Under the pieces are notes generated by a model. The model saw only the letters and a program-made list of their open reading frames with translations, did no database searches and was not told the DNA's origin. Both the position numbers and the translations under genes were made by a program. From Pseudoxanthomonas kaohsiungensis (lineage in GTDB: Bacteria; Pseudomonadota; Gammaproteobacteria; Xanthomonadales; Xanthomonadaceae): 64,000 nucleotides of DNA. How positions within the stretch are numbered: position 1 is the first letter of the stretch; every line of letters begins with the position of its first letter. Shown here one piece after another: positions 5,110 to 39,956 of the stretch. Location: NCBI RefSeq assembly GCF_010211765.1, contig NZ_PDWO01000004.1, forward strand, positions 124,001 to 188,000, in the 5' to 3' direction.

Positions 5110-5115
5110 TCGGCC

Positions 5116-5382: not shown

Positions 5383-5394
5383 GGAGAGATGACC

Positions 5395-5730: not shown

Positions 5731-5731
5731 T

Positions 5732-6460: not shown

Positions 6461-6465
6461 CGGCG

Positions 6466-6879
6466 ATGTTGCAACCCAAGCGAACCAAGTTCCGCAAGCA
6501 GTTCAAGGGCCGTAACGAGGGCCTGAGCTGGAGCGCCAACGCCGTTTCCTTCGGCGAGTACGGCCTGAAGGCCACCGCCCACGGCCGCCTGACCGCGCGC
6601 CAGATCGAGGCGGCTCGCCGCACGATCAGCCGCTACGTCAAGCGCGGCGGCAAGATGTGGATCCGCGTGTTCCCGGACAAGCCGATCACCCAGAAGCCGA
6701 TCGAAGTCCGCATGGGCTCGGGCAAGGGTAACGTCGAGTACTGGGTGGCCCAGATCCAGCCCGGCCGCATGATCTATGAAATCGAGGGAGTGCCGGAAGA
6801 CCAGGCGCGCGAGGCGTTCCGCCTGGCGGCCGCCAAGCTCTCGGTCACCACCACCTTCGTGACCCGCACGGTGCGCTAA
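6466..6879 (+). CDS. rplP: 50S ribosomal protein L16
   Basis: Late-assembly protein near the A site. It has 137 residues and the landmarks [15 protein letters not shown] and [18 protein letters not shown], the latter holding the arginine that is hydroxylated in E. coli L16. The stop overlaps the rpmC start by one base (TAATG). Confidence 0.98.
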
Positions 6880-7067
6880 TGGCTACGATCAACGAACTCC
6901 GCGAAAAGTCGGCTGACCAGCTGAAGGCCCACCTGCTGGATCTGCGCAAGGAGCAGTTTTCCCTGCGCATGCAGAAGGCGACCGGCCAGCTGTCGAAGAC
7001 CCACGAAACCAGCCGGGTGCGCCGCGAGATCGCGCGCGTGAAGACCCTGCTCGGCAGCAACCAGTAA
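6879..7067 (+). CDS. rpmC: 50S ribosomal protein L29
   Basis: Small helical protein at the exit tunnel. It has 62 residues, with the family motif [14 protein letters not shown] and an Arg/Lys-rich second helix ending [12 protein letters not shown]. The one-base overlap with rplP indicates coupled translation. Confidence 0.97.
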
Positions 7068-7079
7068 GGGATCGCAGCG

Positions 7080-7346
7080 ATGAGCGACAACAACAACAAG
7101 GCGCTGCGCACGGTCGAAGGCCGCGTGATCAGCAACAAGATGGACAAGACGGTAACCATCCTCGTCGAGCGCCAGGTCAAGCACGCCCTGTACGGCAAGT
7201 ACATCAAGCGCTCGACCAAGCTCCACGCCCACGATGCGGACAATAGCTGCAACGAAGGTGACGTGGTGCGCGTGACCGAGATCGCGCCGATGTCCAAGAC
7301 CAAGAACTGGCGCGTGGTGGAAATCGTCACCCGCGCGGTCGAATAA
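7080..7346 (+). CDS. rpsQ: 30S ribosomal protein S17
   Basis: OB-fold protein that binds 16S rRNA early in assembly. It has 88 residues, with the family blocks [33 protein letters not shown] and [15 protein letters not shown]. It lies between rpmC and rplN in the standard order. Confidence 0.98.
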
Positions 7347-7360
7347 GGGAGATCTGAATC

Positions 7361-7729
7361 ATGATCCAGATGCAGAGCTACCTCGACGTGGCCGACAACT
7401 CGGGTGCCAAGGAACTGATGTGCATCAAGGTGCTCGGCGGCTCCAAGCGCCGCTACGCGGGCATCGGCGACATCATCAAGGTGACCGTCAAGGACGCGAT
7501 CCCGCGCGGCAAGGTCAAGAAGGGTGAAGTCTACGACGCCGTCGTGGTCCGTACCCGCAAGGGCGTCCGTCGTGCCGACGGCTCGCTCATCCGCTTCGAT
7601 GGCAACGCTGCCGTCCTGCTGAACAACAAGCAGGAGCCGATCGGTACCCGCATCTTCGGACCGGTGACCCGTGAGCTGCGTTCCGAGAAGTTCATGAAGA
7701 TCGTCTCGCTCGCGCCTGAAGTGCTCTGA
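7361..7729 (+). CDS. rplN: 50S ribosomal protein L14
   Basis: Subunit-interface protein that contacts 16S rRNA and the silencing factor RsfS. It has 122 residues beginning [18 protein letters not shown]. The conserved [21 protein letters not shown] and [11 protein letters not shown] are present. A GGGAG ribosome-binding sequence precedes the ATG. Confidence 0.98.
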
Positions 7730-7744
7730 GCGGAGGAAGCAGAC

Positions 7745-8062
7745 ATGGCTAACCGTATCAAGAAGGGCGACCAGGTGGTCGTCACGACCGGCAAGGACAA
7801 GGGCAAGCAGGGCGAGGTGGTGCGTGTGGATGGCGACCGCGTGGTCGTTTCCAACGTCAACCTGGTCAAGCGGCACACCAAGCCGAACCCGCAGGCGGGC
7901 GTCGCCGGCGGCGTGGTCGAGCGCGAGAGCTCGATCCACATTTCCAACGTGATGCCGGTCAACCCTGCCACTGGCAAGGGCGAGCGGATCGGATTCAAGG
8001 TCCTGGAGGATGGACGCAAACTGCGTGTGTTCCGCTCCAGTGGTGAGGCGCTCGACGCCTGA
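7745..8062 (+). CDS. rplX: 50S ribosomal protein L24
   Basis: KOW-domain protein that starts 50S assembly. It has 105 residues. The KOW motif [19 protein letters not shown] is at the N terminus, followed by [10 protein letters not shown] and the [16 protein letters not shown] tail region. It lies directly before rplE. Confidence 0.98.
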
Positions 8063-8073
8063 GGAATGAAGCA

Positions 8074-8616
8074 ATGACCACGCGGCTCGAAAAGATCTAC
8101 AAGGAACAGGTTGTGCCGGCTCTCATGGAGAAGTTCGGCTACACCAACCCCATGGAAGTCCCCAAGCTCGTCAAGATCACGCTGAACATGGGCGTGGGCG
8201 AAGCGGCTGCCAACAAGAAGGTGCTCGAGAACGCCGTCGCCGACCTGGCCAAGATCACCGGCCAGAAGCCGGTGACGACCAAGTCGCGCGTCTCGGTGGC
8301 CTCGTTCAAGATCCGTGACGGCTGGCCGATCGGCTGCAAGGTCACCCTGCGGCGCCACCAGATGTTCGAGTTCCTGGACCGCCTGATCAGCGTCTCGCTG
8401 CCGCGCGTCCGCGACTTCCGCGGCGTGTCGGGCCGCTCGTTCGACGGCCGTGGCAACTTCAACATGGGCGTGAAGGAACAGATCATCTTCCCGGAAATCG
8501 ACTTCGACGCCGTCGACGCGATCCGCGGCATGGATATCGCCATCACCACGACCGCCAAGACCGACGCCGAAGCGAAGGCGCTGCTCGAAGCGTTCAAGTT
8601 CCCGTTCCGCAATTAA
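8074..8616 (+). CDS. rplE: 50S ribosomal protein L5
   Basis: 5S rRNA binding protein of the central protuberance. It has 180 residues, with [10 protein letters not shown] near residue 37, [19 protein letters not shown] and [19 protein letters not shown]. Order and spacing are those of the spc operon. Confidence 0.98.
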
Positions 8617-8627
8617 GGGTTAGACAC

Positions 8628-8933
8628 ATGGCAAAGACCTCGATGGTCAACCGCGACGTGAAGCGGGAAAAGCTGGCCAAGAAGTACGCGGCCAAGCGTG
8701 ACGCGCTGAAGGCGGTCATCGCGAGCCAGACCGCTTCGTACGACGAGAAGGCCGAGGCGGTGGTCAAGCTGCAGAAGCTGCCGCGTGACTCCTCGCCGAG
8801 CCGCCAGCGCAACCGCTGCGAGCTGTCCGGCCGCCCGCGTGGCGTCTACAGCAAATTCGGCCTGGGCCGGAACAAGCTGCGCGAAGCCACCATGCGCGGC
8901 GACGTGCCCGGCCTGCGCAAGGCCAGCTGGTAA
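8628..8933 (+). CDS. rpsN: 30S ribosomal protein S14, zinc-independent form
   Basis: Small-subunit head protein. Its 101 residues are the long form without the paired CxxC zinc sites; only the single Cys of [12 protein letters not shown] is present. It ends [11 protein letters not shown], as in other gammaproteobacteria. It is followed by a 186-bp spacer with a terminator-like hairpin and a promoter candidate, unusual in the middle of the spc block. Confidence 0.98.
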
Positions 8934-8983
8934 GACGGGCGGGGCGACCCCGGGTCGCCCGACCGGATGCTGTAACCGGCGAG

Positions 8984-9003
8984 CCGGCCCAAGGGCCGGT
9001 TTT
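8984..9003 (+). terminator. Terminator-like hairpin between rpsN and rpsH
   Basis: CCGGCCC-AA-GGGCCGG followed at once by TTTT. The very short loop would open to a slightly smaller stem, but the GC-rich stem plus T-run fits an intrinsic terminator or attenuator. It lies 50 bp after the rpsN stop, inside the spc block, so full termination would be unexpected unless rpsH has its own promoter. Confidence 0.55.
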
Positions 9004-9005
9004 CC

Positions 9006-9014
9006 TGCTATTAT
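9006..9014 (+). promoter_or_regulatory. Extended -10 promoter candidate for rpsH
   Basis: TGC-TATTAT is an extended -10 element directly after the terminator-like hairpin, about 105 bp before rpsH. No good -35 box lies 17 bp upstream, which extended -10 promoters can tolerate. The AT-rich patch is conspicuous in this GC-rich spacer. Confidence 0.35.
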
Positions 9015-9119
9015 TCCGCGCTTCCCCCGGCCAGCCCGGGATGGCCAAGGGCCCTGGCCCCTTCCAGGAACAATCCAGATTTCGCGAAAGCGGATATCGG
9101 TGCACTCAAGGAACCATTC

Positions 9120-9518
9120 ATGAGCATGACTGATCCCATCGCCGACATGCTGGTCCGCATCAAGAATGCGGCCGCTGTGGGCAAGCCGACGGTGAAGCTG
9201 CCGTCCTCGAAGATCAAGGTCGCCATCGCCAACGTCCTCAAGGACGAAGGCTACATCTCGGACCTGCGCGTTACCCAGGGCGAGAACAACAAGGCCGAAC
9301 TCGAGATCGTGCTGAAGTACTTCGAAGGCCGCCCGGTCATCGACCAGCTCAAGCGCGCCTCGCGCTCGGGCCTGCGCCTGTACCGCGGCAAGAGCGACCT
9401 GCCGAAGGTCCTCGGCGGCCTCGGCGTGGCCATCATTTCCACCTCCCAGGGCATCATGACCGACAAGCAGGCGCGCAACGCCGGCGTGGGCGGCGAAGTC
9501 CTGTGCTACGTGGCCTAA
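9120..9518 (+). CDS. rpsH: 30S ribosomal protein S8
   Basis: 16S rRNA binding protein; in E. coli it represses the spc operon at the L5 region. It has 132 residues beginning [17 protein letters not shown]. The C-terminal landmarks [19 protein letters not shown] and [20 protein letters not shown] are complete. An AAGGA sequence precedes the start. Confidence 0.98.
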
Positions 9519-9537
9519 TCGAAGGAGTACGACGAGC

Positions 9538-10065
9538 ATGTCCCGCGTAGCCAAGAAGCCGATCGCCCTCCCGAAGGGCGTCGAACTGAACATCCAGGAC
9601 ACCAGCGTCAGCGCCAAGGGTCCGAAGGGCACGCTGTCGCTGGCCAAGCCGGCCGGCGTGCAGATCGCCGTCGAGGACGGCAACGCCGTGCTGTCGGCCA
9701 ACGATGCCTCGCTGGTCCCGCTGACCGGCACCGTGCGCGCGATCCTGGCCAACATGGTCAAGGGCGTCTCGGAAGGCTTCGAGCGCAAGCTCGAGCTGGT
9801 CGGCGTCGGTTACCGCGCCGCGATGCAGGGCAAGGACCTGAGCCTGTCGCTCGGTTTCTCGCATCCGGTCGTGTACGCGGCGCCGGAAGGCATCACCATC
9901 ACCACGCCGACCCAGACCGAAATCCTGGTCCAGGGCGCGGACAAGCAGCTGGTGGGCGAAGTCGCCGCCAAGATCCGCGCTTACCGCAAGCCCGAGCCGT
10001 ACAAGGGCAAGGGCGTGAAGTACTCCGACGAAGTCATCATCCGTAAGGAAGCCAAGAAGGCGTAA
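9538..10065 (+). CDS. rplF: 50S ribosomal protein L6
   Basis: Protein near the GTPase-associated centre, built from two similar domains. It has 175 residues, starting [17 protein letters not shown]. The C-terminal signature [20 protein letters not shown] is intact. A 92-bp spacer with a CCGGC/GCCGG hairpin separates it from rplR, longer than usual inside this block. Confidence 0.98.
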
Positions 10066-10157
10066 GTGTTCGCGGGTCGTCCACTGGAGCCCGGCCGTCG
10101 GCCGGACGTCCCGGCAGCGCCCCGCACCATCCTTCAGCTTCCACGAGGTAAATACAC

Positions 10158-10514
10158 ATGAGCATCAAGAACGACGCCCGCCTGCGCCGCGCCAAGTCCA
10201 CCCGGGCCCACATCCGCAAGCTCGGCGTGCCGCGCCTGTCGGTGCTGCGCACCGGCCAGCACCTGTATGCCCAGCTGTTCACCGCCGATGGCGCCAAGGT
10301 CATCGCGGCCGCCAACACCCTGCAGGCCGACGTCAAGGAAGGCCTGAAGAACGGCAAGAACAGCGACGCCGCCGCCAAGGTCGGCAAGCTGATCGCCGAG
10401 CGCGCCAAGGCCGCGGGCATCGAGAAGGTCGCCTTCGACCGCTCGGGCTACCGTTACCACGGCCGCATCAAGGCCCTGGCCGACGCCGCCCGCGAGGGTG
10501 GCCTGCAGTTCTGA
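10158..10514 (+). CDS. rplR: 50S ribosomal protein L18
   Basis: 5S rRNA binding protein with 118 residues. An Arg/Lys-rich N terminus is followed by [15 protein letters not shown], and it ends [26 protein letters not shown], split here only by reading. It is separated from rpsE by 154 bp that contain a GGGCCCGC/GCGGGTCCC hairpin with one bulge. Confidence 0.97.
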
Positions 10515-10668
10515 TCCAGCGGGCCCGCTGCGGCGGGTCCCGACCTGCCGGCGCAGGGTGCGCCGGACGCCGTCCTCCTTCTGCGGGGGCGTGACGTTGC
10601 ACCGCGACAGCCCACAACCATAAGCGGCCACGAGCCGTACATATCCAGACAACCAAGGAATCACAGCA

Positions 10669-11211
10669 ATGGCAGAAGAGCGTCAGCCGCGGGGCCGCGA
10701 TCGCGACCGCAACCGCGAAGAGAAAGTCGACGACGGCATGATCGAGAAGCTGGTCGCGGTCAACCGCGTCAGCAAGACCGTCAAGGGCGGCCGCCAGTTC
10801 ACCTTCACCGCGCTGACCGTGGTCGGCGACGGCGACGGCAAGGTCGGTTTCGGCTACGGCAAGGCCCGCGAGGTCCCGGTCGCCATCCAGAAGTCGATGG
10901 AGTATGCGCGCAAGGGCATGCTGACCGTCGACCTGAACAACGGCACCCTGTGGCACCCGGTGAAGGCCGGCCACGGCGCCGCGCGCGTGTTCATGCAGCC
11001 GGCCTCCGAAGGTACCGGCGTGATCGCCGGCGGCGCCATGCGCGCCGTCCTGGAAGCGGTCGGCGTGAAGAACGTGCTGGCCAAGGCCGTCGGTTCGCGC
11101 AACCCGATCAACCTGGTCCGCGCCACCCTGGCCGGCCTGGAAGCCATGCAGTCGCCGACCCGCATCGCGGCCAAGCGCGGCAAGAAGGCGGAGGAACTCC
11201 TCAATGGCTAA
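10669..11211 (+). CDS. rpsE: 30S ribosomal protein S5
   Basis: Decoding-fidelity protein of the small subunit. Its 180 residues exceed the 167 of E. coli mainly through a charged N-terminal stretch of about 20 residues ([17 protein letters not shown]). The S5 domains follow, with [16 protein letters not shown] and [19 protein letters not shown]. It overlaps rpmD by 8 bp. Confidence 0.98.
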
Positions 11212-11395
11212 CGAGTCCAACAAGACCGTCAAGGTGCGCCTGGTGCGCGGCCTGCGCGGCACCCAGGCCCGCCACCGCCTGTCGGTCAAGGCCCTGGGCC
11301 TGAACAAGCTCAACGACGTGCGCGAGCTGAAGGACAGCCCGCAGGTCCGCGGTCTGATCAACCAGCTGCACTACCTGGTGCGGGTCGAGGACTAA
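11204..11395 (+). CDS. rpmD: 50S ribosomal protein L30
   Basis: Small 50S protein with 63 residues. It shows [32 protein letters not shown] and [12 protein letters not shown]. It overlaps the end of rpsE by 8 bp, so translation is probably coupled, and rplO starts 10 bp after its stop. Confidence 0.97.
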
Positions 11396-11405
11396 GGAGA
11401 ACACC

Positions 11406-11843
11406 ATGCGTCTCAACACTCTCAAGCCCGCAGAGGGCGCCCGCCAGGAGCGGACCCGCGTCGGTCGCGGCATCGGTTCCGGCCTGGGCAAGACCGCCGG
11501 CCGCGGCCACAAGGGCTCGTTCGCCCGCTCCGGCAAGGGCAAGATCAAGGCAGGCTTCGAAGGCGGCCAGACCCCGATGCAGCGTCGCCTGCCGAAGGTC
11601 GGCTTCCGCTCGGTGACCGCCAAGGACACCGCCGAAGTGCTGCTGTACAAGCTCGACCTGGTCGAAGGCGACACCGTCGACTTCGCCACGCTGAAGGCGG
11701 CCAAGCTGGTTCCGTCGACGGCCAAGCGCGCCAAGATCGTCAAGAAGGGCGAACTGTCGCGCAAGCTGACCATCAAGGGCGTGCAGGTGACCGCGGGTGC
11801 CAAGACCGCGATCGAAGCCGCCGGCGGCAGCATCGAGGAGTAA
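11406..11843 (+). CDS. rplO: 50S ribosomal protein L15
   Basis: Late 50S assembly protein with 145 residues. It has the Gly-rich N-terminal arm [20 protein letters not shown], then [18 protein letters not shown] and the C-terminal ITAGAK-like segment [14 protein letters not shown]. It lies 7 bp before secY. Confidence 0.98.
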
Positions 11844-11850
11844 GAAGCAC

Positions 11851-13206
11851 ATGGCGCAAGCTGGCATCGGCAATCTCGGCAGCGGCCTGGGCAAGTTCAC
11901 CGAACTTCGCCAGCGCCTGCTGTTCGTGCTGGGTGCGTTGGTCGTCTACCGGATCGGCTGTTTCGTGCCGGTCCCGGGCGTCAACCCCGATGCCATGCTC
12001 GCCATGATGCAGGCGCAGGGCGGCGGCATCGTGGACATGTTCAACATGTTCTCGGGCGGCGCCCTGCACCGCTTCAGCATTTTCGCGCTCAACGTGATGC
12101 CGTACATCTCGGCGTCGATCGTGATGCAGCTGGCCGTCCATATCTTCCCGGCGCTGAAGGCGCTGCAGAAGGAGGGCGAGTCCGGCCGCCGCAAGATCAC
12201 CCAGTACTCGCGCGTCGGCGCGGTGCTGCTGGCGGTGGTGCAGGGCGGAAGCATCGCCATGGCGCTGCAGAACCAGACCGCGCCGGGCGGCGTGCCGGTC
12301 GTCTATACCCCGGGCATCGGCTTCGTCCTGACCGCAGTGGTGGCGCTGACCGCCGGCACCATCTTCCTGATGTGGCTTGGCGAGCAGGTCACCGAGCGCG
12401 GCATCGGCAACGGCGTGTCGCTGATCATCTTCGCGGGTATCGTCGCCGGCCTGCCGTCGGCCGTGATCCAGACCGTGCAGGCCTACCAGAACGGCAGCCT
12501 CAACTTCCTGTCGCTGCTGCTGATCGTGGTGGTGGTGCTGGGCTTCACCTGGTTCGTGGTGTTCGTCGAGCGCGGCCAGCGCCGGATCACGGTCAACTAC
12601 GCGCGGCGCCAGGGTGGCCGCAACGCGTACATGAACCAGACCTCGTTCCTGCCGCTCAAGCTCAACATGTCGGGCGTGATCCCGGCGATCTTCGCCTCCA
12701 GCATCCTGGCGTTCCCGGCGACGCTGAGCATGTGGTCCGGCCAGGCCACGCAGGCGACCTGGCTGCAGCGCGTGTCCAATGCGCTGGCCCCGGGCGAGCC
12801 CCTGCACATGATCGTGTTCGCCGCGCTGATCACCGGCTTCGCGTTCTTCTATACCGCGCTGGTGTTCAACTCGCAGGAAACCGCGGACAACCTGAAGAAG
12901 TCCGGCGCGCTGATCCCGGGCATCCGGCCGGGCAAGGCCACCGCCGACTACATCGACGGCGTGCTGACCCGCCTGACCGCCGCCGGCGCCGCCTACCTGG
13001 TGATCGTCTGCCTCCTGCCGGAGGTGATGCGCACCCAGCTCAACACGTCGTTCTACTTCGGCGGCACCTCGCTGCTGATCGTGGTGGTCGTGGTGATGGA
13101 CTTCATCGCCCAGATCCAGGCCCACCTGATGTCGCACCAGTACGAGAGCCTTCTGAAGAAGGCCAACCTCAAGGGTGGCTCCCGCGGCGGTCTCGCCCGG
13201 GGCTGA
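11851..13206 (+). CDS. secY: Preprotein translocase subunit SecY
   Basis: Channel-forming inner-membrane protein of the Sec translocon. ATG 11851 ([14 protein letters not shown]) gives 451 residues; longer in-frame extensions run into rplO and are rejected. About ten hydrophobic helices are readable. Landmarks include [12 protein letters not shown] in the plug region, [20 protein letters not shown], and the cytoplasmic loop [13 protein letters not shown]. The rpmJ gene that follows secY in many bacteria is absent. Confidence 0.98.
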
Positions 13207-13529
13207 CCCCAGATTCCATCCCGGCGGACCCATTCCGCCGGCATCCGGACATGACCGGATCAACCAAATGGGCGGCCCTCGCGACGTCTCGCGCGAGGGT
13301 GAGATTCTGCGGTGCCGCGCTGGAGTAGCGCGGCCGGCCACCGGGCAACCGGGCGGTCAGCGGGATCCGGCGCCGGAGCATGGGCACACTCCCCATGCCG
13401 GGTCCAGGGCCTTCGGGCCCCGGGCTTCCAAGTAATCCGGGACATTGATAGAATTCGCAGTTCACTTTTGAACCATCCTGTCGGGCGTGCCCTGGGCGCG
13501 TGCCGACCCTCAAGTTTGGAGATCGCGTC
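13207..13529 (+). other. 323-bp secY-rpsM spacer with hairpin and weak promoter; no rpmJ
   Basis: No gene is visible. The expected 37-38-residue L36 frame is not present on either strand. A GGGCC-TTCG-GGCCC hairpin (13407-13420) has a stable UUCG loop but no T-run. A possible promoter, TTCCAA (13426-13431), 17 bp, TAGAAT (13449-13454), lies 75 bp before rpsM and could serve the alpha block (rpsM-rpsK-rpsD-rpoA). Confidence 0.45.
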
Positions 13530-13886
13530 ATGGCGCGTATTGCAGGCGTCAACCTGCCGACTCAGAAGCACGTCTGGGTGGGATTGCAGAGCATCTTTGG
13601 CATCGGCCGGACCCGGTCGAAGAAGGTGTGCGAAGCCGCGGGTGTGGCTTCCAACACCAAGATCCGTGACCTGTCCGAGCCCGAAGTCGAGCGCCTGCGC
13701 GCCGAAGTCGGCAAGTACGTGGTCGAAGGCGACCTGCGTCGCGAAATCGGCATCGCCATCAAGCGACTGATGGACCTGGGCTGCTACCGCGGCCTGCGTC
13801 ACCGTCGTGGCCTGCCCCTGCGCGGCCAGCGCACCCGCACCAACGCCCGCACCCGCAAGGGTCCGCGCAAGGCGATCAGGAAGTAA
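13530..13886 (+). CDS. rpsM: 30S ribosomal protein S13
   Basis: Small-subunit head protein contacting the P-site tRNA and the 50S subunit. ATG 13530 ([19 protein letters not shown]) gives 118 residues as in E. coli; the in-frame GTG at 13500 adds ten residues foreign to the family. The C-terminal [20 protein letters not shown] tail is intact. Confidence 0.97.
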
Positions 13887-13898
13887 GGGATACCGACC

Positions 13899-14291
13899 AT
13901 GGCAAAGCCGGCAGCAGCCAAGACCAAGAAGAAGATCAAGCGCGTCGTCACCGACGGCATCGCGCATGTCCACGCTTCTTTCAACAACACCATCGTGACG
14001 ATCACCGACCGCCAGGGCAACGCGCTCTCGTGGGCGACTTCGGGCGGCGCGGGTTTCCGCGGCTCGCGCAAGTCGACCCCGTTCGCCGCGCAGGTCGCCG
14101 CCGAGAAGGCCGGCAAGGCCGCGCTCGACTACGGTGTGAAGTCGCTTGAAGTCCGCATCAAGGGGCCGGGCCCGGGTCGTGAATCGGCCGTCCGCTCGCT
14201 CAACAACGTGGGCTACAAGATCACCAACATCATCGACGTGACGCCAATCCCGCACAACGGGTGCCGTCCGCCGAAGAAGCGTCGCGTCTAA
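13899..14291 (+). CDS. rpsK: 30S ribosomal protein S11
   Basis: Platform protein of the small subunit, with 130 residues. [19 protein letters not shown] is near residue 25. The C-terminal [20 protein letters not shown] includes the Asn-Gly pair that forms isoaspartate in some bacteria. It lies 12 bp after rpsM. Confidence 0.98.
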
Positions 14292-14305
14292 GGGGGCGAT
14301 AAGAA

Positions 14306-14935
14306 ATGGCTCGTTATATCGGTCCTACCTGTAAGCTCGCGCGCCGCGAAGGCGCCGATCTTTCCCTCAAGAGCCCGGCCCGTGCGCTGGACTCCAAGTG
14401 CAAGCTGGAGCAGAAGCCCGGCCAGCACGGCGCGACCGCGCGCAAGGGCAAGCTGTCCGACTACGCCACCCAGCTGCGCGAGAAGCAGAAGGTCAAGCGC
14501 ATCTACGGCCTGCTGGAGCGCCAGTTCCGCAACTACTACAAGAAGGCCTCGACCAAGAAGGGCAACACCGGCGAGAACCTGCTGCAGCTGCTGGAAACCC
14601 GCCTGGACAACGTGATCTACCGCATGGGTTTCGCGGTCACGCGTCCGTCGGCGCGCCAGCTGGTCAGCCACCGCGGCGTGCTGGTCAACGGCAAGCCGGT
14701 GAACCTGCCGTCGTACCAGGTCAAGGCCGGCGACGCGATCGCCCTGTCCGAGAAGGCGCAGAAGCAGCTGCGCGTCCAGGAAGCCCTGACCGTGGCCGAG
14801 CAGCACGACATGACCCCGTCGTGGATCGAGGTCGACGCCAAGAAGTTCGCCGGCGTGTTCAAGGCCGTCCCGGACCGGGCCGACCTGCCGGCCGACATCA
14901 ACGAAGCGCTGATCGTCGAGCTGTACTCGAAGTAA
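14306..14935 (+). CDS. rpsD: 30S ribosomal protein S4
   Basis: Primary 16S rRNA binding protein and, in E. coli, the repressor of the alpha operon. It has 209 residues with [18 protein letters not shown] at the start. The S4 RNA-binding domain is centred on [20 protein letters not shown]. The spacer to rpoA is 156 bp and carries a CCGCGCCC/GGGCGCGG hairpin at 14949-14968. Confidence 0.98.
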
Positions 14936-15091
14936 CAGTGGCTGGCCGCCGCGCCCTCCCGGGCGCGGCGCCGCATCCCACACCCCGGCCGGATCGCGTC
15001 GCCCCGCCTTCCGGCCGCCCCCGGATGACGGGGCCACAAGCCAGAGCCGGCGGTTCCCAGATCGTCGGCTCATTGCAGGAGAATCCGCAAC

Positions 15092-16090
15092 ATGACGGTT
15101 ACCGCCAACCAGGTCCTGCGTCCCCGCGGACCGCAGATCGAACGCCTCACCGACAATCGCGCCAAGATCGTGATCGAACCGCTCGAGCGCGGTTACGGCC
15201 ACACGCTGGGCAACGCGCTGCGCCGCGTCCTGCTGTCCTCGATCCCCGGCTTCGCGATCACCGAGGTCGAGATCGACGGCGTGCTGCACGAGTACACCAC
15301 GGTCGAAGGCCTGCAGGAGGACGTGCTGGAAGTCCTGCTGAACCTGAAGGACGTCGCCATCCGCATGCACAACGGCGAGAGCGCCACCCTGAGCCTGTCC
15401 AAGCAGGGTCCGGGCGTGGTCACCGCCGGTGACATCAAGACCGACCACAACGTCGAGATCCTCAACGTCGACCACGTGATCTGCCACCTCACCAAGGACA
15501 CGGCGCTGAACATGCGCCTGAAGATCGAGCGCGGCTTCGGCTACCAGCCGGCGACCGCCCGTCGCCGTCCGGACGAGGAAACCCGCACGATCGGCCGCCT
15601 GGTCCTGGACGCCTCGTTCTCGCCGGTCCGCCGCGTCGCCTACGCCGTGGAAGCCGCGCGCGTGGAGCAGCGCACCGACCTGGACAAGCTGGTCCTGGAC
15701 ATCGAGACCAACGGCACGATCGACGCCGAGGAAGCCGTGCGCACCGCCGCCGACATCCTCAGCGACCAGCTGTCGGTGTTCGGCGACTTCACCCACCGCG
15801 ACCGTGGCGCCGCCAAGGCCACCCCGACCGGCGTGGATCCGGTGCTGCTGCGCCCGATCGACGACCTCGAGCTGACCGTGCGTTCGGCCAACTGCCTCAA
15901 GGCCGAGAGCATCTACTACATCGGCGACCTGATCCAGAAGACCGAGGTCGAGCTGCTCAAGACCCCGAACCTGGGCAAGAAGTCGCTGACCGAGATCAAG
16001 GAAGTCCTCGCCCAGCGTGGCCTTTCGCTCGGCATGAAGCTCGAGAACTGGCCGCCGGCGGGCGTCGCCGCCCACGGCATGCTCGGCTAA
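15092..16090 (+). CDS. rpoA: DNA-directed RNA polymerase subunit alpha
   Basis: Scaffold for RNA polymerase assembly. Its 332 residues compare with 329 in E. coli. The N-terminal domain has [20 protein letters not shown] near residue 30. The C-terminal domain that binds UP elements and activators has [20 protein letters not shown] and [21 protein letters not shown] 20-residue Ala/Thr-containing linker joins them. Confidence 0.98.
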
Positions 16091-16100
16091 GAAGCAACAC

Positions 16101-16133
16101 CGTTCCCGCATCCATCGCGATGCGGGAACGTTT
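16101..16133 (+). terminator. Terminator-like hairpin between rpoA and rplQ
   Basis: A perfect 12-bp stem, CGTTCCCGCATC with GATGCGGGAACG around a CATCGC loop, lies 10 bp after rpoA and is followed by TTT. The stem is strong but the T-run is short, so partial termination or attenuation is more likely than a full stop. rplQ follows after about 140 bp with no clear promoter. Confidence 0.5.
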
Positions 16134-16271
16134 CGGCGCCGACGGGCCTGAAGGCCCGCGGCGACTCACCGGCCAAGGAGTGCCGGTTCGGGCCAGCGCA
16201 GTCCACAGCAGCAACGCCTGGATGGCGACAGCGAACCACAACCGCCACAACATTCCACAGGAACCACGACC

Positions 16272-16643
16272 ATGCGCCACCAGAAAGCCGGCCGCAAGTT
16301 CAGCCGCACCAGCGCCCACCGCGAAGCGATGTTCAAGAACATGGCCGCCTCGCTGTTCAAGCACGAACTGATCAAGACCACCCTGCCCAAGGCCAAGGAA
16401 CTGCGCCGCGTCGCCGAGCCGCTGATCACCCTGGCCAAGGTCGACAGCGTCGCCAACCGCCGCCTGGCGTTCGCCCGCCTGCGTGACAAGGAAGCCGTCG
16501 GCAACCTGTTCACCATGCTGGGCCCGCGCTACCAGGGCCGCCCGGGCGGCTACCTGCGCATCCTCAAGTGCGGCTTCCGCGCCGGCGACAACGCGCCGAT
16601 GGCGTATGTCGAGCTGGTCGATCGCCCGCAGGCCGCCGAGTAA
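16272..16643 (+). CDS. rplQ: 50S ribosomal protein L17
   Basis: Tunnel-exit region protein and last gene of the block. It has 123 residues with [20 protein letters not shown] and [19 protein letters not shown]. It ends [17 protein letters not shown] 181-bp spacer with a hairpin separates it from rpoA and a strong terminator follows. Confidence 0.98.
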
Positions 16644-16689
16644 TCCGGCACGACACATTCCGTCCGCCGCCCCCGTGGCGACGGGATCG

Positions 16690-16717
16690 AAAGCCCCGGC
16701 ACGGCCGGGGCTTTTTC
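16690..16717 (+). terminator. Intrinsic terminator after rplQ
   Basis: AGCCCCGGC-ACG-GCCGGGGCT (16692-16712) is preceded by AA and followed by TTTTCG. The A-run/T-run symmetry and 9-bp GC stem are those of a Rho-independent terminator. It closes the ribosomal-protein supercluster. Confidence 0.88.
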
Positions 16718-16803
16718 GTTTCAGGCGCGACGATTACCGTTGCGGCCCCGGATGCGGAATAATCGCTGCATCTTCCCTGCGGGCGGCGGCCCCGATCCTG
16801 CCA

Positions 16804-17322
16804 ATGAATCCTTTCCGCTGGAGTTTCCGCGCGCAGTTCCTCGCCGGCTTCCTCGGTTGCGTCGCGCTTGTCGGCTACGCGATCTATACCCAGCTCTACC
16901 AGGGCCTGGAACCCTGCCCGCTGTGCATCTTCCAGCGCATCGCCTACGCGGCGCTGGGACTGGTGTTCCTGCTCGGTGGCCTGCATGCGCCGCGTTCCCC
17001 GGGCGGCCGCGGCTTCTACGGCGTGCTGGTGCTGCTGGCGTCGGCCGTCGGCATCGGCATCGCCGGCCGCCATGTGTGGCTGCAATCCCTGCCCAAGGAG
17101 CTGGCGCCGTCGTGCGGTCCGCCCCTGTCGTTCCTGCAGGAGACACACGGCCCGCTCGAGCTGGTGCGCAAGGTGCTCACGGGCACCGGCAACTGCGGCG
17201 ATGTCGACTGGACCCTGTTCGGCCTCAGCATGCCGGCCTGGAGCCTGGCCGGCTTCGTCCTGCTGGCGCTGTGGGGCCTGTTCGCCGCCTTCCGGCGCCG
17301 CAAGGGACGCAACCGCCTGTGA
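16804..17322 (+). CDS. dsbB: Disulfide bond formation protein B
   Basis: Inner-membrane oxidoreductase that reoxidises periplasmic DsbA and passes electrons to quinone. ATG 16804 gives 172 residues with four hydrophobic segments. The first periplasmic pair is in EPCPLCIFQR near residue 38. The second pair is the Cys of APSCGPP and the Cys of GTGNCGDVDW. Upstream frame extension runs into rplQ DNA and is rejected. The DAHP synthase gene starts 25 bp after its stop, so the two may be cotranscribed. Confidence 0.95.
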   Translation: MNPFRWSFRAQFLAGFLGCVALVGYAIYTQLYQGLEPCPLCIFQRIAYAALGLVFLLGGLHAPRSPGGRGFYGVLVLLASAVGIGIAGRHVWLQSLPKELAPSCGPPLSFLQETHGPLELVRKVLTGTGNCGDVDWTLFGLSMPAWSLAGFVLLALWGLFAAFRRRKGRNRL

Positions 17323-17347
17323 TCCTCCTTCCGACGCGAACCCGCCC

Positions 17348-18742
17348 ATGAGCACGCCCGAGCGCACCCTGCACGCCGTCGACCTGGCGCAGAGCTGGTC
17401 GCCTTCCAGCTGGCGCGCCCGTCCGGCGCTGCAGATGCCGCAATACCCCGATGCAGCCGCGCTGGAGGCGGCGCTGGCCGAGCTGCGGCAGCTGCCGCCA
17501 CTGGTGACCTCGTGGGAGATCTTCGCGCTGAAGAAGCAGCTCGCCGAAGCGCAGGAAGGCAAGCGTTTCCTGCTGCAGGGCGGCGACTGCGCCGAGAACT
17601 TCAGCGACTGCGAGTCCGGCACCATTTCCAACCGGCTCAAGGTGCTGCTGCAGATGAGCCTGGTGCTGGTCCATGGCCTGCGGCTGCCGGTGGTCCGCGT
17701 CGGCCGCTTCGCCGGCCAGTACGCCAAGCCGCGATCGGCCGACCTGGAAACCCGTGGCGAGGTCAGCCTTCCGAGTTATCGCGGCGACGTGGTCAACGGC
17801 CCGGCGTTCACGGCGGAAGCGCGCGTGCCCGATCCCCGGCGCATGATCACCGCGCATGCGCGCTCGGCGATGACGATGAACTTCGTGCGCGCGCTGATCG
17901 ACGGCGGTTTCGCCGACCTGCACCATCCCGAGTACTGGAGCCTGAGCTGGGTCGGCTGCTCGCCGCTGGCCGAGGACTACCAGAAGATGGTGAACTCGAT
18001 CGGCGACGCCGTGCGGTTCATGGAGACGCTGGCCGGCGTGGAGGTGCACAACCTCAACCGGATCGATTTCTACACCTCGCACGAAGCCCTGTTGCTGCCG
18101 TACGAGGAGGCGCTGACACGGCAGGTACCGCGGCAGTGGGGCTGGTTCAACCTGTCCACGCACTATCCGTGGATCGGCATGCGCACCGCCGCGCTGGACG
18201 GCGCCCACGTGGAGTACTTCCGCGGCATCCGCAATCCGATCGCGATCAAGGTGGGCCCGTCGGTGCAGCCGGACCAGCTGCTGCGCCTGGTCGACGTGCT
18301 CAACCCGGATGACGAGCCCGGGCGGCTGACCTTCATCCACCGCATGGGGGCCGCCCAGATCGCGGACCGGCTGCCACCGCTGCTCGATGCCGTCCGCCGC
18401 GACGGCCGGCGCGTGCTGTGGGTCTGCGATGCGATGCACGGCAACACCGAGAGCACTGCCAACGGCTATAAGACCCGCCGCTTCGCCAACATCCTGTCCG
18501 AGGTGGAGCAGTCCTTCGACCTGCATGCAGCCGCCGGGACGCGTCTGGGTGGCGTGCACCTGGAGCTCACCGGGGAAGACGTGACCGAATGCACCGGTGG
18601 GGCGCGCGAACTGACCGAGGTCGACCTCGAGCGCGCCTACCGCTCCTCCGTGGACCCGCGGCTCAACTACGAGCAGTCGCTGGAGATCGCGATGGCGATC
18701 GTGCGCAAGCAGGGCCAGCGCAGCGGCGACGCATCGACCTGA
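17348..18742 (+). CDS. 3-deoxy-7-phosphoheptulonate synthase, class II
   Basis: First enzyme of the shikimate pathway: condenses phosphoenolpyruvate with erythrose 4-phosphate. This is the plant/actinobacterial type II family, not the AroFGH type. ATG 17348 (MSTPERTLHAVDL) gives 464 residues. Landmarks are LLQGGDCAENF with the metal-binding Cys near residue 80, RVGRFAGQYAKPRS, KVGPSV, and CDAMHGNT near residue 360. Upstream in-frame residues overlap dsbB in another frame and are rejected. Confidence 0.95.
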   Translation: MSTPERTLHAVDLAQSWSPSSWRARPALQMPQYPDAAALEAALAELRQLPPLVTSWEIFALKKQLAEAQEGKRFLLQGGDCAENFSDCESGTISNRLKVLLQMSLVLVHGLRLPVVRVGRFAGQYAKPRSADLETRGEVSLPSYRGDVVNGPAFTAEARVPDPRRMITAHARSAMTMNFVRALIDGGFADLHHPEYWSLSWVGCSPLAEDYQKMVNSIGDAVRFMETLAGVEVHNLNRIDFYTSHEALLLPYEEALTRQVPRQWGWFNLSTHYPWIGMRTAALDGAHVEYFRGIRNPIAIKVGPSVQPDQLLRLVDVLNPDDEPGRLTFIHRMGAAQIADRLPPLLDAVRRDGRRVLWVCDAMHGNTESTANGYKTRRFANILSEVEQSFDLHAAAGTRLGGVHLELTGEDVTECTGGARELTEVDLERAYRSSVDPRLNYEQSLEIAMAIVRKQGQRSGDAST

Positions 18743-35269: not shown

Positions 35270-36496
35270 CTAGTCGTGCGCCACATCCGCGTCGGCTTCG
35301 GGCTGCAGGCCGGTATAGCTGGCGCGCGGCCGGATCAGCTGGCCCTGGGCTTGCTGTTCCAGCGCATGCGCCAGCCACCCGGCGAGCCGTCCGGCGGCGA
35401 ACATCGACAGCGCTGGCGCAGCCGGAAGATCGTGCGCCAGGCAGATCGCGGCCAGGGTGAAGTCGACGTTCGGGCGGCGGCCGCTGGCCGCTTCGGCGGC
35501 GGTGATCACCGCTTCCAGCGTGCGCATGGCATCGGCGTCGACCGGGGTGGCGCGCAGCATCGCCAGCAGCGTGGCCGCGCGCGGGTCGCCGTCGGGGTAA
35601 AGCGCGTGGCCGAAACCGGGCAGGTCTTCGCCGCGCTGCCAGCGCTTGGCGATGAAACGGGCGATGTCGGTCGAGTCGCGCGCGCTTTCGACCAGCGCGT
35701 AGGCGCGGGCCGTGGCGCCGCCATGGCGCGGGCCGGACAACGCCGCAAGGCCGGCGCAGACGGTCGCATGCAGGTGCGCGCCGGTCGAGGCCACCACGCG
35801 CGCCGCGAACGCGGACACGTTGAGTTCGTGGTCGGCGCACAACACCAGCGCGGCGCGGACCAGCCCGGCGAAGTCCGCATCGCCGGGACGCCAGGCGTCG
35901 GCGAGCAGGCGGTGGACCGGCCCGGCCGGCCGCCGGGCGACCAGCAGCGCGGCGTTCTGGCGCAGGAGGGTGGCGGCTACCGCGCGGCGGGTGGGCTGGT
36001 CGGCCTGGAACGAGTGCGGAACGTGCAGGGCCAGTAGCGGGATTGCCGCCATCGCCCGGCTCAGCGGCGGCAGGGCGGCATCCGTGGCCAGCGGCGCGAT
36101 CCGAGCCGGCCAGTCGCCGGGCGGGTCGGCGAACGGATCCTGGCTGCCGCAATCCCACAACAGCCGGGCGATGTCCTCCAGGGTGGCGCCGGCCTCGGCG
36201 GCGGCGACCGCCGAGCGGCCCCGGTAGTAGGGGCCATCGGGGCGGATCAGCGAGATCCGGGTCTCCAGCACCGGCAGGCCGCGGTCCAGGCTCTGCGCGG
36301 CGCCGCGGGCCGGGCCGCGTCCCAGGCGCTTGCGCTGCGCCAGCCGCTCCACGTCCTGGCGGCGGTAGACGCGGCTGCGGTGGTCCGCGCCCGGACGCGA
36401 CTCGAGCAGGCCGCGGCTGACGTAGGCGTACAGGGTGGCGGCGCTGATGCCGAGGATCCGGCAGGCTTCCGCCGCGGGGATGAGGTCGCGATCCAT
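35270..36496 (-). CDS. Helix-turn-helix/citrate-synthase fusion protein
   Basis: 408 residues. Residues ~5-55 form a MerR/excisionase-type DNA-binding domain (EACRILGISAATLYAYVSRG, then RVYRRQDVERL). The rest is a citrate synthase fold: ADHELNVSAFAARVVASTGA, GPRHGG, FGHALYPDGDPRA and RPNVDFTLA. These hold the two catalytic His and the catalytic Asp of active enzymes, so catalysis is not excluded. It is divergent from prpB with palindromic TTGATC sites between. I infer a regulator of the methylcitrate genes that senses a citrate-synthase ligand, or a second citrate/methylcitrate synthase. The frame upstream of 36496 is antisense to prpB and rejected. Confidence 0.88.
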   Translation of the reverse strand: MDRDLIPAAEACRILGISAATLYAYVSRGLLESRPGADHRSRVYRRQDVERLAQRKRLGRGPARGAAQSLDRGLPVLETRISLIRPDGPYYRGRSAVAAAEAGATLEDIARLLWDCGSQDPFADPPGDWPARIAPLATDAALPPLSRAMAAIPLLALHVPHSFQADQPTRRAVAATLLRQNAALLVARRPAGPVHRLLADAWRPGDADFAGLVRAALVLCADHELNVSAFAARVVASTGAHLHATVCAGLAALSGPRHGGATARAYALVESARDSTDIARFIAKRWQRGEDLPGFGHALYPDGDPRAATLLAMLRATPVDADAMRTLEAVITAAEAASGRRPNVDFTLAAICLAHDLPAAPALSMFAAGRLAGWLAHALEQQAQGQLIRPRASYTGLQPEADADVAHD

Positions 36497-36505
36497 CGGG
36501 AAATA

Positions 36506-36532
36506 TTGATCGATACGATCAAGATTGATCAA
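36506..36532. promoter_or_regulatory. Paired palindromic TTGATC operator candidate
   Basis: TTGATCG-ATA-CGATCAA (36506-36522) has perfect 7-bp arms and is followed, two bases later, by the perfect palindrome TTGATCAA (36525-36532). Together they give four half-sites of TTGATC type in 27 bp, just upstream of the HTH-citrate synthase start and 75 bp before prpB. The AT-rich block stands out in GC-rich DNA. It is a strong candidate binding site for the HTH-citrate synthase protein. Confidence 0.55.
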
Positions 36533-36607
36533 CTGGTGGCAGGGTGACACATTGCCGCTGCCGCGGGGCTGCCCGCGCACACCATCGCCAGGCCGAGGAA
36601 CCGAACC

Positions 36608-37522
36608 ATGTCCACTCCCGCCAACGCAGGCGCTGCCGCCGGCCACTCGGCCGGTGCAAAGTTCCGCGCCGCCCTGGCCGCCGAATCGCCCTTGCAGGTG
36701 ATCGGCGCGATCAACGCCAACCACGCCCTGCTCGCGCAGCGCGCCGGCTACCGGGCGATCTACTTGTCCGGCGGCGGCGTGGCGGCCGGCTCGCTGGGCC
36801 TGCCGGACCTGGGCATCAACACGCTCGACGACGTGCTGGTCGACACCCGCCGCATCACCGACGTGTGCGACCTGCCGCTGCTGGTGGACATCGACACCGG
36901 CTTCGGCCCGAGCGCGTTCAACATCGAGCGCACGATCAAATCGCTGATCAAGGCCGGCGCGGCGGCGTGCCACATCGAGGACCAGGTCGGCGCCAAGCGC
37001 TGCGGCCACCGCCCGGGCAAGGAGATCGTTTCCGCCGGCGAGATGGCCGACCGGGTCAAGGCCGCCGCCGATGCGAAGACCGATGCAGCGTTCTTCCTGA
37101 TCGCGCGTACCGACGCCATCGCCGTGGACGGCGTGGATGCGGCGATCGAGCGTGCCATCGCCTGCGTGGAGGCCGGCGCCGACGGCATCTTCGCCGAGGC
37201 CGCCTACGACCTGCCGACCTACCGGCGCTTCGTCGAGGCGGTGAAGGTGCCGGTGCTGGCCAACATCACCGAGTTCGGCAAGACCCCGCTGTTCACCCGC
37301 CAGGAGCTGGCCTCGGTGGGCGTGGCGATCCAGCTGTTCCCGCTGTCGGCGTTCCGGGCCGCCAACAAGGCCGCCGAGAACGTCTACCAGGCCATCCGCC
37401 GCGACGGCGGCCAGCAGGCCGTGCTCGACACGATGCAGACCCGCGAGGAGCTGTACGACCGCATCGGCTACCACGCCTTCGAGCAGAAGCTCGACGCGTT
37501 GTTCGCGCGCAAGGGCGGCTGA
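36608..37522 (+). CDS. prpB: Methylisocitrate lyase
   Basis: Cleaves 2-methylisocitrate to pyruvate and succinate, the last step of the methylcitrate cycle. It has 304 residues of the PEP mutase/isocitrate lyase superfamily. Landmarks are [26 protein letters not shown] for metal binding, the catalytic loop [15 protein letters not shown] with the Cys near residue 123, and [13 protein letters not shown]. It is divergent from the HTH-citrate synthase gene; DUF1003 and prpC genes follow. Confidence 0.95.
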
Positions 37523-37562: not shown

Positions 37563-38162
37563 ATGAGCACGACCGCCGCCCATCCGCATGCGCGCCGCCC
37601 CCTCGACCGCCGCGACACCGCGCGCCTGTTGTTGCAGGCGGAGATCGAGAAACTGCCGCCGGACGAGCGCGAGGTGGTCGAGCGCTTCATCGCCAGGCGC
37701 CGGGTGGCGCGCAACATCGGCCGGGAGTTCCCGGCCTCGCTCACCCTGGGCCAGCGCGTGGCCGATCGCGTGGCCCGGATCGGCGGCAGCTGGCGCTTCA
37801 TCATCGCGTTCTGCGTGTTCCTGGCGGCGTGGATGGCGTTGAACAGCGCGACGGGCAGCGCATTCGACCCCTATCCGTTCATCCTGCTCAACCTGGTGCT
37901 GTCGAGCCTGGCCGCGCTGCAGGCGCCGGTGATCATGATGAGCCAGAACCGCCAGGCCGAAGCCGATCGCATGCAGGCGCAGAACGACTACGAGGTCAAC
38001 ATCAAGTCCGAACTGGAGATCCTCCAGGTGCACGAGAAGCTCAACGAGCTGCGCGAGCGCGACTGGGCGACCCTGGTCGACCTGCAGAACCGCCAGATCG
38101 AGATGCTGCAGCAGCTGCTGCAGCGCGCCGCGGACGCCGGCCCCCGCCCGGCCCAGCCGTGA
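37563..38162 (+). CDS. DUF1003 family membrane protein
   Basis: 199 residues. Soluble N terminus, then two close hydrophobic helices ([20 protein letters not shown] and [20 protein letters not shown]) joined by the family loop with [27 protein letters not shown] then leads into a helical, probably coiled-coil tail. This matches DUF1003 proteins, whose function is not established. It lies between prpB and prpC, an unusual place, with 40- and 37-bp spacers, so it is probably cotranscribed. Confidence 0.85.
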
Positions 38163-38199: not shown

Positions 38200-39351
38200 A
38201 TGAACGACACCGCCACCACCTTCAAGCCGAAGAAATCGGTCGCCCTCAGCGGTACTGCCGCCGGCAACACCGCCCTGTGCACGGTCGGCCGCAGCGGCAA
38301 CGACCTGCACTACCGCGGCTACGACATCCTCGACCTGGCCACCACCAGCGAGTTCGAGGAGATCGCCCACCTGCTGGTCCACGGCAAGCTACCCAACGCG
38401 GCCGAGCTGGCCGGCTACAAGGCCAAGCTGAAGTCGCTGCGCGGCATCCCGGCCGCGGTCAAGGCCGCGCTGGAGGAGCTGCCTCCTTCGGCCCACCCGA
38501 TGGACGTGATGCGCACCGGCGTGTCGGTGCTCGGCTGCGTGTCGCCCGAGAAGGACGACCACAACCACCCCGGCGCGCGCGACATCGCCGACAAGCTGAT
38601 GGCCTGCCTGGGTTCGATGCTGCTGTACTGGTACCACTGGTCGCACAACGGCCGCGCGATCGATGTGGAAACCGACGACGACTCCATCGGCGGCCACTTC
38701 CTGCACCTGCTGCACGGCGTGCCGCCGCGCGCGTCGTGGGTGCGGGCGATGCACACCTCGCTGATCCTGTACGCCGAGCACGAGTTCAACGCCTCGACCT
38801 TCACCGCGCGCGTGATCGCCGGCACCGGCAGCGACATGCACTCGTGCATCGCCGGGGCGATCGGCGCGCTGCGCGGGCCCAAGCACGGCGGCGCCAACGA
38901 GGTCGCGTTCGAGGTGCAGAAGCGCTACGACAGCCCCGAGGACGCCGAGGCCGACATCCGGGCCCGGGTCGAGCGCAAGGAGGTGGTGATCGGCTTCGGC
39001 CACCCGGTCTACACCGTCGGCGACCCGCGCAACCAGGTGATCAAGCAGGTGGCCCGCGACCTGTCGGCCGAGCAGTCGAGCATGAAGATGTACGCCATCG
39101 CCGAGCGGCTGGAGGCGGTGATGTGGGACATCAAGAAGATGTTCCCCAACCTGGACTGGTTCAGCGCGGTCAGCTACCACATGATGGGGGTGCCCACGGC
39201 CATGTTCACCCCGCTTTTCGTGATCGCGCGCACGTCCGGCTGGAGCGCCCACGTGATCGAGCAGCGGATCGATGGCAAGATCATCCGTCCCAGCGCCAAT
39301 TACACCGGTCCGGAGAACCTGGAGTTCGTCCCGATCGACCGGCGCGGGTAG
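38200..39351 (+). CDS. prpC: 2-methylcitrate synthase
   Basis: Condenses propionyl-CoA with oxaloacetate. Its 383 residues are the short, hexamer-independent citrate synthase type typical of PrpC. Landmarks are [41 protein letters not shown] with one catalytic His, [15 protein letters not shown] with the other, and [17 protein letters not shown] with the Asp. Neighbouring prpB fixes the pathway. The dehydratase genes acnD/prpF or prpD are not in this window. Confidence 0.95.
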
Positions 39352-39389: not shown

Positions 39390-39956
39390 ATGCGCGAGGG
39401 GATCTACCGCAAGACCGATGCGGGACGGGACGAGATACGTGATCGCGGCCGGCGGCTGTCGCCGCCGCTGCGCACGGTCCTGCTGATGGTGGACGGCCAG
39501 CGCACGCTGGCCCAGCTGCGCGAGGTGATGGCCGGCATGAAGGCCCCCGCCGACGCGCTCGAGGCGCTGCTGGCCGACGGGCTGATCGAAGCGGTGCCCA
39601 GTGGCTTCGACCCGGCCGGCCTGATGGGCGCGATCGGGCCGCGGGCGGCCAGCCGGCCGCCGAGCGTGGTGCTGGCCGAGGCAGCCGCCAATGCCGCGGC
39701 GCCGGCGCCGGTGGCCGGGTCGGCCGCCGCGGCGGACACGGGCTCGGGTGCCTACCTGTACCTCTACGAGCGCATGAGCGAGGCCGTGCGCGCCCACCTG
39801 GGGCTTCGCGGCTACTTCCTGCAGCTCAAGGTCGAGCGTTGCACCGACATCGCGAGCCTGCAGGCCCTGCTGCCCGAGCTGCGCGCCGCCGTGGCCAAGG
39901 CCAAGGGCGAGAGCTTCGCCAGCGACTGGGAACGCACCCTGGAGGTGCCGGCCTGA
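39390..39956 (+). CDS. Hypothetical protein downstream of prpC
   Basis: 188 residues, no recognised family. The N-terminal ~75 residues (LRTVLLMVDGQRTLAQLREV, then ALEALLADGLIEAVPSG) look like a small winged-helix-type module. An Ala/Pro-rich linker follows at ~95-120. The C-terminal ~65 residues begin YLYLYERMSEAVRAHLGLRG. It starts 38 bp after prpC and may be the last gene of the prp operon. A regulatory or adaptor role is a guess from the layout. Confidence 0.7.
   Translation: MREGIYRKTDAGRDEIRDRGRRLSPPLRTVLLMVDGQRTLAQLREVMAGMKAPADALEALLADGLIEAVPSGFDPAGLMGAIGPRAASRPPSVVLAEAAANAAAPAPVAGSAAAADTGSGAYLYLYERMSEAVRAHLGLRGYFLQLKVERCTDIASLQALLPELRAAVAKAKGESFASDWERTLEVPA

Follow-up and report, generated by a model that had tools for sequence, protein, structure and literature searches.

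We analyzed a 64,000-nucleotide stretch of the Pseudoxanthomonas kaohsiungensis genome (the window), in which a gene encoding a helix-turn-helix (HTH) domain fused to a citrate synthase (CS) fold lies divergent from prpB, a DUF1003 protein gene and prpC (Table 1). A preliminary description, made from the letters of the window, had named these three neighbors, and Pfam and NCBIfam matches confirmed all of them. We searched 38 loci by tblastn, a set lacking most of the remaining fusion genomes from the window's genus, and detected the DUF1003 gene in only two, that of G010 (L077) and that of G022 (L064).

Table 1. Genes, domains and predicted promoter features around the HTH-CS fusion gene (window coordinates)
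Feature	Position	Strand	Basis
HTH-CS fusion gene	35270..36496	−	408 aa; ORF and Pfam
CS domain, residues 72–391, proposed ligand sensor	35324..36283	−	PF00285, fold match, arginines
Winged HTH domain, residues 5–59	36320..36484	−	Pfam HTH_17/MerR_1 and AlphaFold2
Presumed recognition helix region, residues 19–29 (AATLYAYVSRG)	36410..36442	−	Near-invariance in HTH-CS proteins
Operator TTGAT-N7-ATCAA-GA-TTGATCAA, common to both divergent promoters (predicted)	36506..36532	+	Phylogenetic footprint
Predicted prpB promoter −35, TTGATC, overlapping the third box of the operator	36525..36530	+	Family-wide −10 peak 17 bp downstream
Predicted prpB promoter −10, CACATT after TGA	36548..36553	+	Sequence; related loci
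prpB, 2-methylisocitrate lyase, divergent predicted target	36608..37522	+	NF008455, 518.7 bits (cut-off 353)
DUF1003 protein gene, between prpB and prpC	37563..38162	+	PF06210
prpC, bifunctional 2-methylcitrate/citrate synthase	38200..39351	+	NF009006, 718 bits (cut-off 550)
188-aa ORF 3΄ of prpC	39390..39956		No Pfam match at E 0.001

The fusion of a MerR/excisionase-like HTH to a CS fold, also described previously, was recovered by Pfam searches: HTH_17 matched residues 9–56 (35.7 bits; cut-off 27), MerR_1 residues 9–58 (29.1 bits; cut-off 21.6) and Citrate_synt (PF00285) residues 72–391 (213 bits; cut-off 27), and the MerR profile (PF00376) scored 23 bits, below its cut-off of 28.2. The protein reached none of the 21 listed NCBIfam CS subfamily cut-offs, the best being PRK12350 (159 bits versus 332). 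An AlphaFold2 model computed from ten sequences (mean pLDDT 81.8, pTM 0.74) displayed a winged HTH with helices at residues 8–15 and 19–27, a hairpin at 33–35/42–45 and a helix at 46–59; the 10-residue pLDDT means of the HTH were 83–91 up to residue 50, and values below 50 fell in the linker and the C-terminus (residues 61–79, 82–91 and 389–408). The CS part of the model matched PrpC, a 2-methylcitrate synthase (6s6f; Z 30.5, rmsd 3.0, 305 aligned residues; VIA-align), as well as other CS entries. Since all matches of the fold search with the whole model concerned the CS domain, this search was uninformative on the HTH. A sequence search of solved structures retrieved none with the HTH-CS architecture at the limits used, and its best match to the HTH was SkgA (E 0.069, not significant).

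Between the fusion gene and prpB, at the operator position in Table 1, lies the 27-bp block TTGATCGATACGATCAAGATTGATCAA. When both strands of the window were searched for TTGATCGATACGATCAA with up to three mismatches, this block was the only place found, with 0.07 expected. The hexamer TTGATC by itself was weak evidence, because it was common throughout the window (48 observed versus 15.7 expected). All of its 18 matches in positions 1–18300 were located on the minus strand, which is probably a coding-strand effect.

We then considered the third box of the operator (TTGAT/TTGAC) as a −35 element and scored −10 elements downstream of it in 46 clusters of similar proteins, using an approximate weight matrix. 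The mean −10 score was 0.12 at a spacer of 17, at which 27 of the 46 clusters scored above 1, and lay between −3.05 and −5.81 at every other spacer in the range 8–29. The −10 of the window, CACATT, is weak, and related loci carry a similar one (TGnCACATT/TGCCAGATT). On the regulator strand, −10-like scores peaked directly after the first half-site, at offsets 0 and 2; we left the regulator's own promoter unassigned because this placement in the window would leave almost no leader. With −10-like peaks on both strands, the operator appears to lie between two divergent promoters. Its fixed phase relative to the −35 element fits a direct interplay with RNA polymerase, with which repression and activation are both compatible. 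Thus, of the palindromic TTGATC sites that had been proposed for the shared intergenic DNA, the site itself is real and has a strong phylogenetic footprint, but it does not consist of two free palindromes; what was taken for the second one is instead the continuation of TTGAT-N7-ATCAA-GA into the apparent −35 of the target.

To obtain this footprint, we compared 60 relatives, including the genome of the window itself, using the exact pattern TTGAT-N7-ATCAAGATTGATC. The fusion was present at near full length and at least 69% identity in 22 of the 60 genomes (G000–G016, G022, G028, G031, G036 and G046), that is, in 21 of the 59 other relatives (95–69% identical), and a distant HTH-CS copy split over two frames made G052 the 23rd fusion genome. 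All 23 fusion genomes contained the exact site, which was absent from the 37 fusion-less genomes; ten of the latter contained matches with one or two mismatches only. For comparison, the reversed pattern with up to two mismatches had matches in one genome only (G042). By coordinates, the exact site and the fusion gene are no more than 60 bp apart in 22 of these 23 genomes; in G006, the gene-adjacent copy has one mismatch and an exact copy lies ~225 bp upstream. The fusion genes of G014 (L024; two internal stops) and G052 (L060; two frames) are apparently broken; the adjoining operator is still exact in both. At L015 (G005), a GCCGCT hexamer repeat lies between the operator and prpB.

We also took 30 prp loci of fusion-less relatives, of which 25 were used; L041 was left out because the contig ends within prpB, and L043, L053, L055 and L062 because prpB was not found. 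The site was missing from the prpB upstream regions in all 25. The preliminary description had held that conservation of the palindromes in genomes lacking the fusion gene would speak against its proposal, and no such conservation was seen in these regions. In several fusion-less relatives, as read from the ORFs, prpB follows a malate-dehydrogenase-like or an acyl-CoA-synthetase-like gene.

PrpR, a sigma-54-type regulator with a PrpR_N domain, senses 2-methylcitrate. Its domains are unrelated to those of the fusion, among whose Pfam matches PrpR_N does not occur. PrpR_N was found in two of the 60 relatives, neither of which has the fusion, and in both of them PrpR is divergent from prpB, the position that the fusion occupies elsewhere. 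A search of the whole genome of the window for PrpR_N returned no match, whereas the E. coli positive control matched; a PrpR encoded elsewhere in this genome was therefore ruled out as the controller. This outcome extends to the whole genome the earlier remark that no PrpR is visible, and it removes a separate prpR as an explanation of the regulation.

A wider regulon in this genome was also considered and rejected, as the core RATCAAGATTGATC occurs exactly only once, at prpB. At the two places with one mismatch, the one on C23 reaches 11 of 14 positions as an operator and the one on C33 fewer than 11. The acnD gene is located on another contig, and the 5.6 kb around it reach only 11 of 14; the site seemingly does not cover acnD here.

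Beyond the relatives, we searched with a family profile (A2) that comprises the HTH and the N-terminal half of the CS domain. HTH-CS genes were found in 53 of 398 genomes of a phylum sample and in 67 of 247 genomes, belonging to 10 of 54 genera, of a family sample; a class-level search yielded 4 of 369 at too strict a limit, a value unusable as a frequency. We pooled 96 distinct HTH-CS proteins, leaving out matches that started late in the profile, and determined that the 300 bp upstream of 87 of them contain TTGAT-N6/7-ATCAA-NN-TTGA with a match at 13 or all 14 positions, compared with 0 of 1920 shuffled windows. The site had itself led to 11 of the 96 proteins; without these, a fair count gives 76 of 85, 72 of them with a match at all 14 positions. 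When similar proteins were clustered, the site was present in 46 of 53 clusters (36 of 43 as the fair count, by subtraction); related species are not independent, and clustering lessens this dependence without removing it. In the 75 sites with the 7-base spacing, the unscored bases between ATCAA and TTGA were G in 92% and A in 99%. As an out-of-sample check, we took five of the 84 plasmid records that matched over at least 80% of the protein, and all five displayed a 14/14 site: Agrobacterium fabrum C58 pAt, Chelatococcus daeguensis, Paraburkholderia largidicola, Variovorax paradoxus and Azospirillum thermophilum. The search for TTGATC palindromes upstream of HTH-CS genes in other genomes, which had been suggested as a check, thus had a positive result.

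Nine of the 96 proteins had no site within 300 bp (L102, L106, L108, L143, L160, L165, L166, L171 and L172). For L143, an exact site lies ~3 kb away, upstream of a D-2-hydroxyacid dehydrogenase gene; L143:979–2018 is a second HTH-CS in G728, and its own start has no site. In a genome-wide search of 47 further HTH-CS genomes from the phylum sample, 39 exact sites were detected in 37 genomes, and 36 of the 39 lay within 120 bp of an HTH-CS gene. The remaining three comprised the L143 site, 2.9 kb from the second HTH-CS copy, and single sites in G528 and G726. No match to the reversed pattern occurred in the 47 genomes. Ten of these genomes contained no exact site anywhere, three of which have a site at 13 of 14 positions (G786, G661 and G793; L103, L156 and L161).

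A DNA scan of the whole collection with six bases between the half-sites returned at least 116 stretches. Of the 80 loci listed, 11 had an HTH-CS start no more than 85 bp away, and for the other 69 the surrounding DNA examined contained no HTH-CS; we estimate that dozens of chance matches are to be expected in such a scan. As 11 loci adjoin HTH-CS starts, the 6-base spacing variant is real, and it was also present in L104 (L148), whose protein was not found through the site. The 11 site-found proteins mentioned above are eight of these 11 adjacent loci together with L271, L273 and L293 from outside the listed 80; the 36 stretches beyond the 80 entered the pooled set only. The pooled records belong to Acidobacteriota, Chloroflexota, Gemmatimonadota, Myxococcota and Pseudomonadota, and all examples outside Pseudomonadota were found through the site. 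In a quick tree of CS domains (54 HTH-CS and 13 plain CS, the latter a small set consisting mostly of neighbors of HTH-CS genes), all HTH-CS proteins fell on one side of a branch (SH-aLRT 100), which is consistent with a single fusion event having given rise to the family.

Residues were counted in 94 HTH-CS proteins, two short ones of the 96 being left out, and we assumed for the catalytic and carboxylate-binding residues the roles that they have in pig and E. coli CS. In the window protein, alignment identified both catalytic histidines and the aspartate (H258, H297 and D345), as had been read from its sequence before, together with the substrate-carboxylate residues H223, R306, R370 and R389. 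The three arginines, which we take to correspond to the oxaloacetate/citrate arginines of pig CS with which they align, were nearly invariant in the family (R306, 94/94; R370, 93/94; R389, 94/94). The other residues were less strictly kept (H223, 89/94; H258, 84/94; H297, 85/94), and D345 was D in 83 proteins and E in four; because 12 of the 13 plain CS compared have E at this position, E is no sign of loss. Catalytic residues are thus not kept throughout the family: five site-bearing proteins have lost a catalytic His, namely L101 (H297N), L104 (H258I) and, among the proteins found through the site, L189 (H258I), L239 (H297Q) and L293 (H258V). In the recognition region, T21, Y23 and R28 were present in 94 of 94 proteins, and L22, A24, Y25 and G29 in 91 of 94. 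In a subgroup from one genus (g390; L160, L165, L166, L171 and L172), the catalytic residues have been lost and no operator lies within 300 bp, yet the three arginines and the recognition region are kept; a divergent gene there may, by its look, be cation-efflux-like.

Across loci, the divergent gene varies, and the site remains with the fusion. This gene is prpB in the window and its relatives; in G046, the divergent genes encode AcnD (TIGR02333, 1782 bits) and PrpF (TIGR02334, 746 bits). Elsewhere, we found a second CS (L147 and L239, both exceeding the PRK12350 cut-off, and L184, just under it), a CoA-transferase family III protein (L141, L144 and L153), a TctC tricarboxylate receptor (L148 and L293), a D-2-hydroxyacid dehydrogenase (L156, and also at the L143 site), a methyltransferase (L151) and an HMGL-like protein (L271). 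In genomes of one family, f222, which we take to be Caulobacteraceae (L157, L162, L163 and L164), HTH-CS is divergent from a plain CS with the site in between. Chemistry involving (methyl)citrate, oxaloacetate or CoA esters would suit most of these neighbors, though not obviously the methyltransferase, and their position suggests that they would be under HTH-CS control. The link to propionate drawn in the preliminary description therefore holds for this locus, where the site lies before prpB, but it does not extend to the family, for which prpB is one of several neighbors.

These results suggest that the fusion protein derives from an enzyme and acts as a local transcription factor that also controls its own gene, with the CS pocket sensing oxaloacetate or a (methyl)citrate-like ligand; we assign this reading a probability of about 0.75. 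The comparative evidence supports the enzyme-derived regulator with TTGATC operators that had been proposed initially, in that the site is absent without the fusion and there is no PrpR_N. The MerR/excisionase-like winged HTH would recognize TTGAT-N7-ATCAA as a dimer, which, judging from CS enzymes, the CS fold probably supplies. The site would thereby place the protein directly upstream of the −35 element of the divergent operon, with the third box fitting that element, and also just upstream of the regulator start. The CS pocket, with its carboxylate-binding arginines, would serve as the sensor for oxaloacetate or a (methyl)citrate-like ligand, the likeliest candidate at this locus being 2-methylcitrate, or else oxaloacetate together with propionyl-CoA. 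On ligand binding, the CS domains would close and thereby reposition the two HTHs, which would switch prpB-DUF1003-prpC in addition to the regulator's own gene. As for the sign of regulation, we lean, at odds of about three to two, toward repression relieved by the ligand over activation.

The strongest alternative is a bifunctional trigger enzyme, which would make citrate or 2-methylcitrate and also bind the operator, with substrate occupancy or turnover setting the binding; PutA and BirA are examples of trigger enzymes. The catalytic residues are complete in all 12 aligned proteins of the window's clade, so the window protein may also be an enzyme, and they are complete in most of the 94 HTH-CS proteins. 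However, a separate prpC is located in the same operon, plain-CS matches also occur in each of the 22 fusion genomes, and the five site-bearing members described above lack a catalytic His. In addition, in a study on Caulobacter crescentus, citB and citC are reported as CS-like genes with neighboring locus numbers, and citB, not citC, complements E. coli gltA (PMC7083601). The HTH-CS gene of this species may be citC (CCNA_03758). On balance, we regard the trigger enzyme as unlikely. Far less probable is an ordinary CS isozyme with a vestigial HTH, the conserved site being bound by another regulator. Database records do label these proteins as 'citrate synthase family protein' or 'citrate/2-methylcitrate synthase', but the presumed recognition region is near invariant, and the exact site is found in 0 of 37 fusion-less relatives and tracks the fusion when the divergent gene changes. 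The least credible explanation does without a regulator and takes the site as nothing more than a promoter element in common use or intergenic DNA kept by descent: the third box does behave as a −35, but a promoter does not need TTGAT-N7-ATCAA upstream of it, and the site is found in 0 of 25 prpB upstream regions of fusion-less relatives and recurs beside HTH-CS genes in other phyla.

For the family as a whole, we consider it likely, with slightly less confidence than for the window protein as a local transcription factor, that HTH-CS proteins are ancient, multi-phylum local transcription factors. A single fusion would have retained a conserved promoter-embedded operator, TTGAT-N6/7-ATCAA-GA-TTGA, while its target was repeatedly exchanged; the CS pocket would be a sensor of carboxylates in general, and many proteins listed in databases as 'citrate synthases' would be regulators.

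Enzyme-derived one-component regulators and trigger enzymes include MocR/GabR, BirA, PutA and NadR, which, like the fusion, combine a DNA-binding domain with a metabolic enzyme fold expected to read the ligand. The fusion belongs with them in that one chain holds an HTH and an enzyme fold and a DNA site is tied to the gene, and differs from them in that its enzyme fold is citrate synthase. MerR proteins consist of a winged HTH, a coiled coil and an effector domain, and their promoters have spacers of 19–20 bp. The winged HTH of the fusion scores above the MerR_1 cut-off; however, a CS fold replaces the coiled coil and effector domain, and the operator overlaps and precedes a −35 element with a predicted target spacer of 17 bp, which is not the over-long spacer of the MerR type. 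In the open-licence literature, no HTH-CS regulator was found by title or abstract among the matches listed. The NCBI record of ATU_RS25370 of A. fabrum C58, a near-full-length match of the same family with HTH and CS, gives an enzyme annotation only and no operator or regulatory role. In the accessible part of PMC12542777, 'citrate synthase family protein' appears only as a row of an expression table. Caulobacter CitA is reported to be a CS with a regulatory role independent of enzyme activity; in contrast to the fusion, it is GltA-like (65% identical to E. coli GltA) and acts on the cell cycle, and that text uses none of the terms helix-turn-helix, HTH and MerR (PMC7083601).

The operator is predicted precisely enough for immediate testing. 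If the proposed reading is true, a family annotated as a core metabolic enzyme becomes a family of gene regulators, whose predicted operator can be read from sequence across several phyla, and HTH-CS genes should not be counted as citrate synthases in metabolic models. Such proteins could also serve as a scaffold for genetically encoded sensors of oxaloacetate/citrate-type metabolites. For the lineage of the window, which lacks PrpR, the HTH-CS fusion would provide a control mechanism for the propionate genes.
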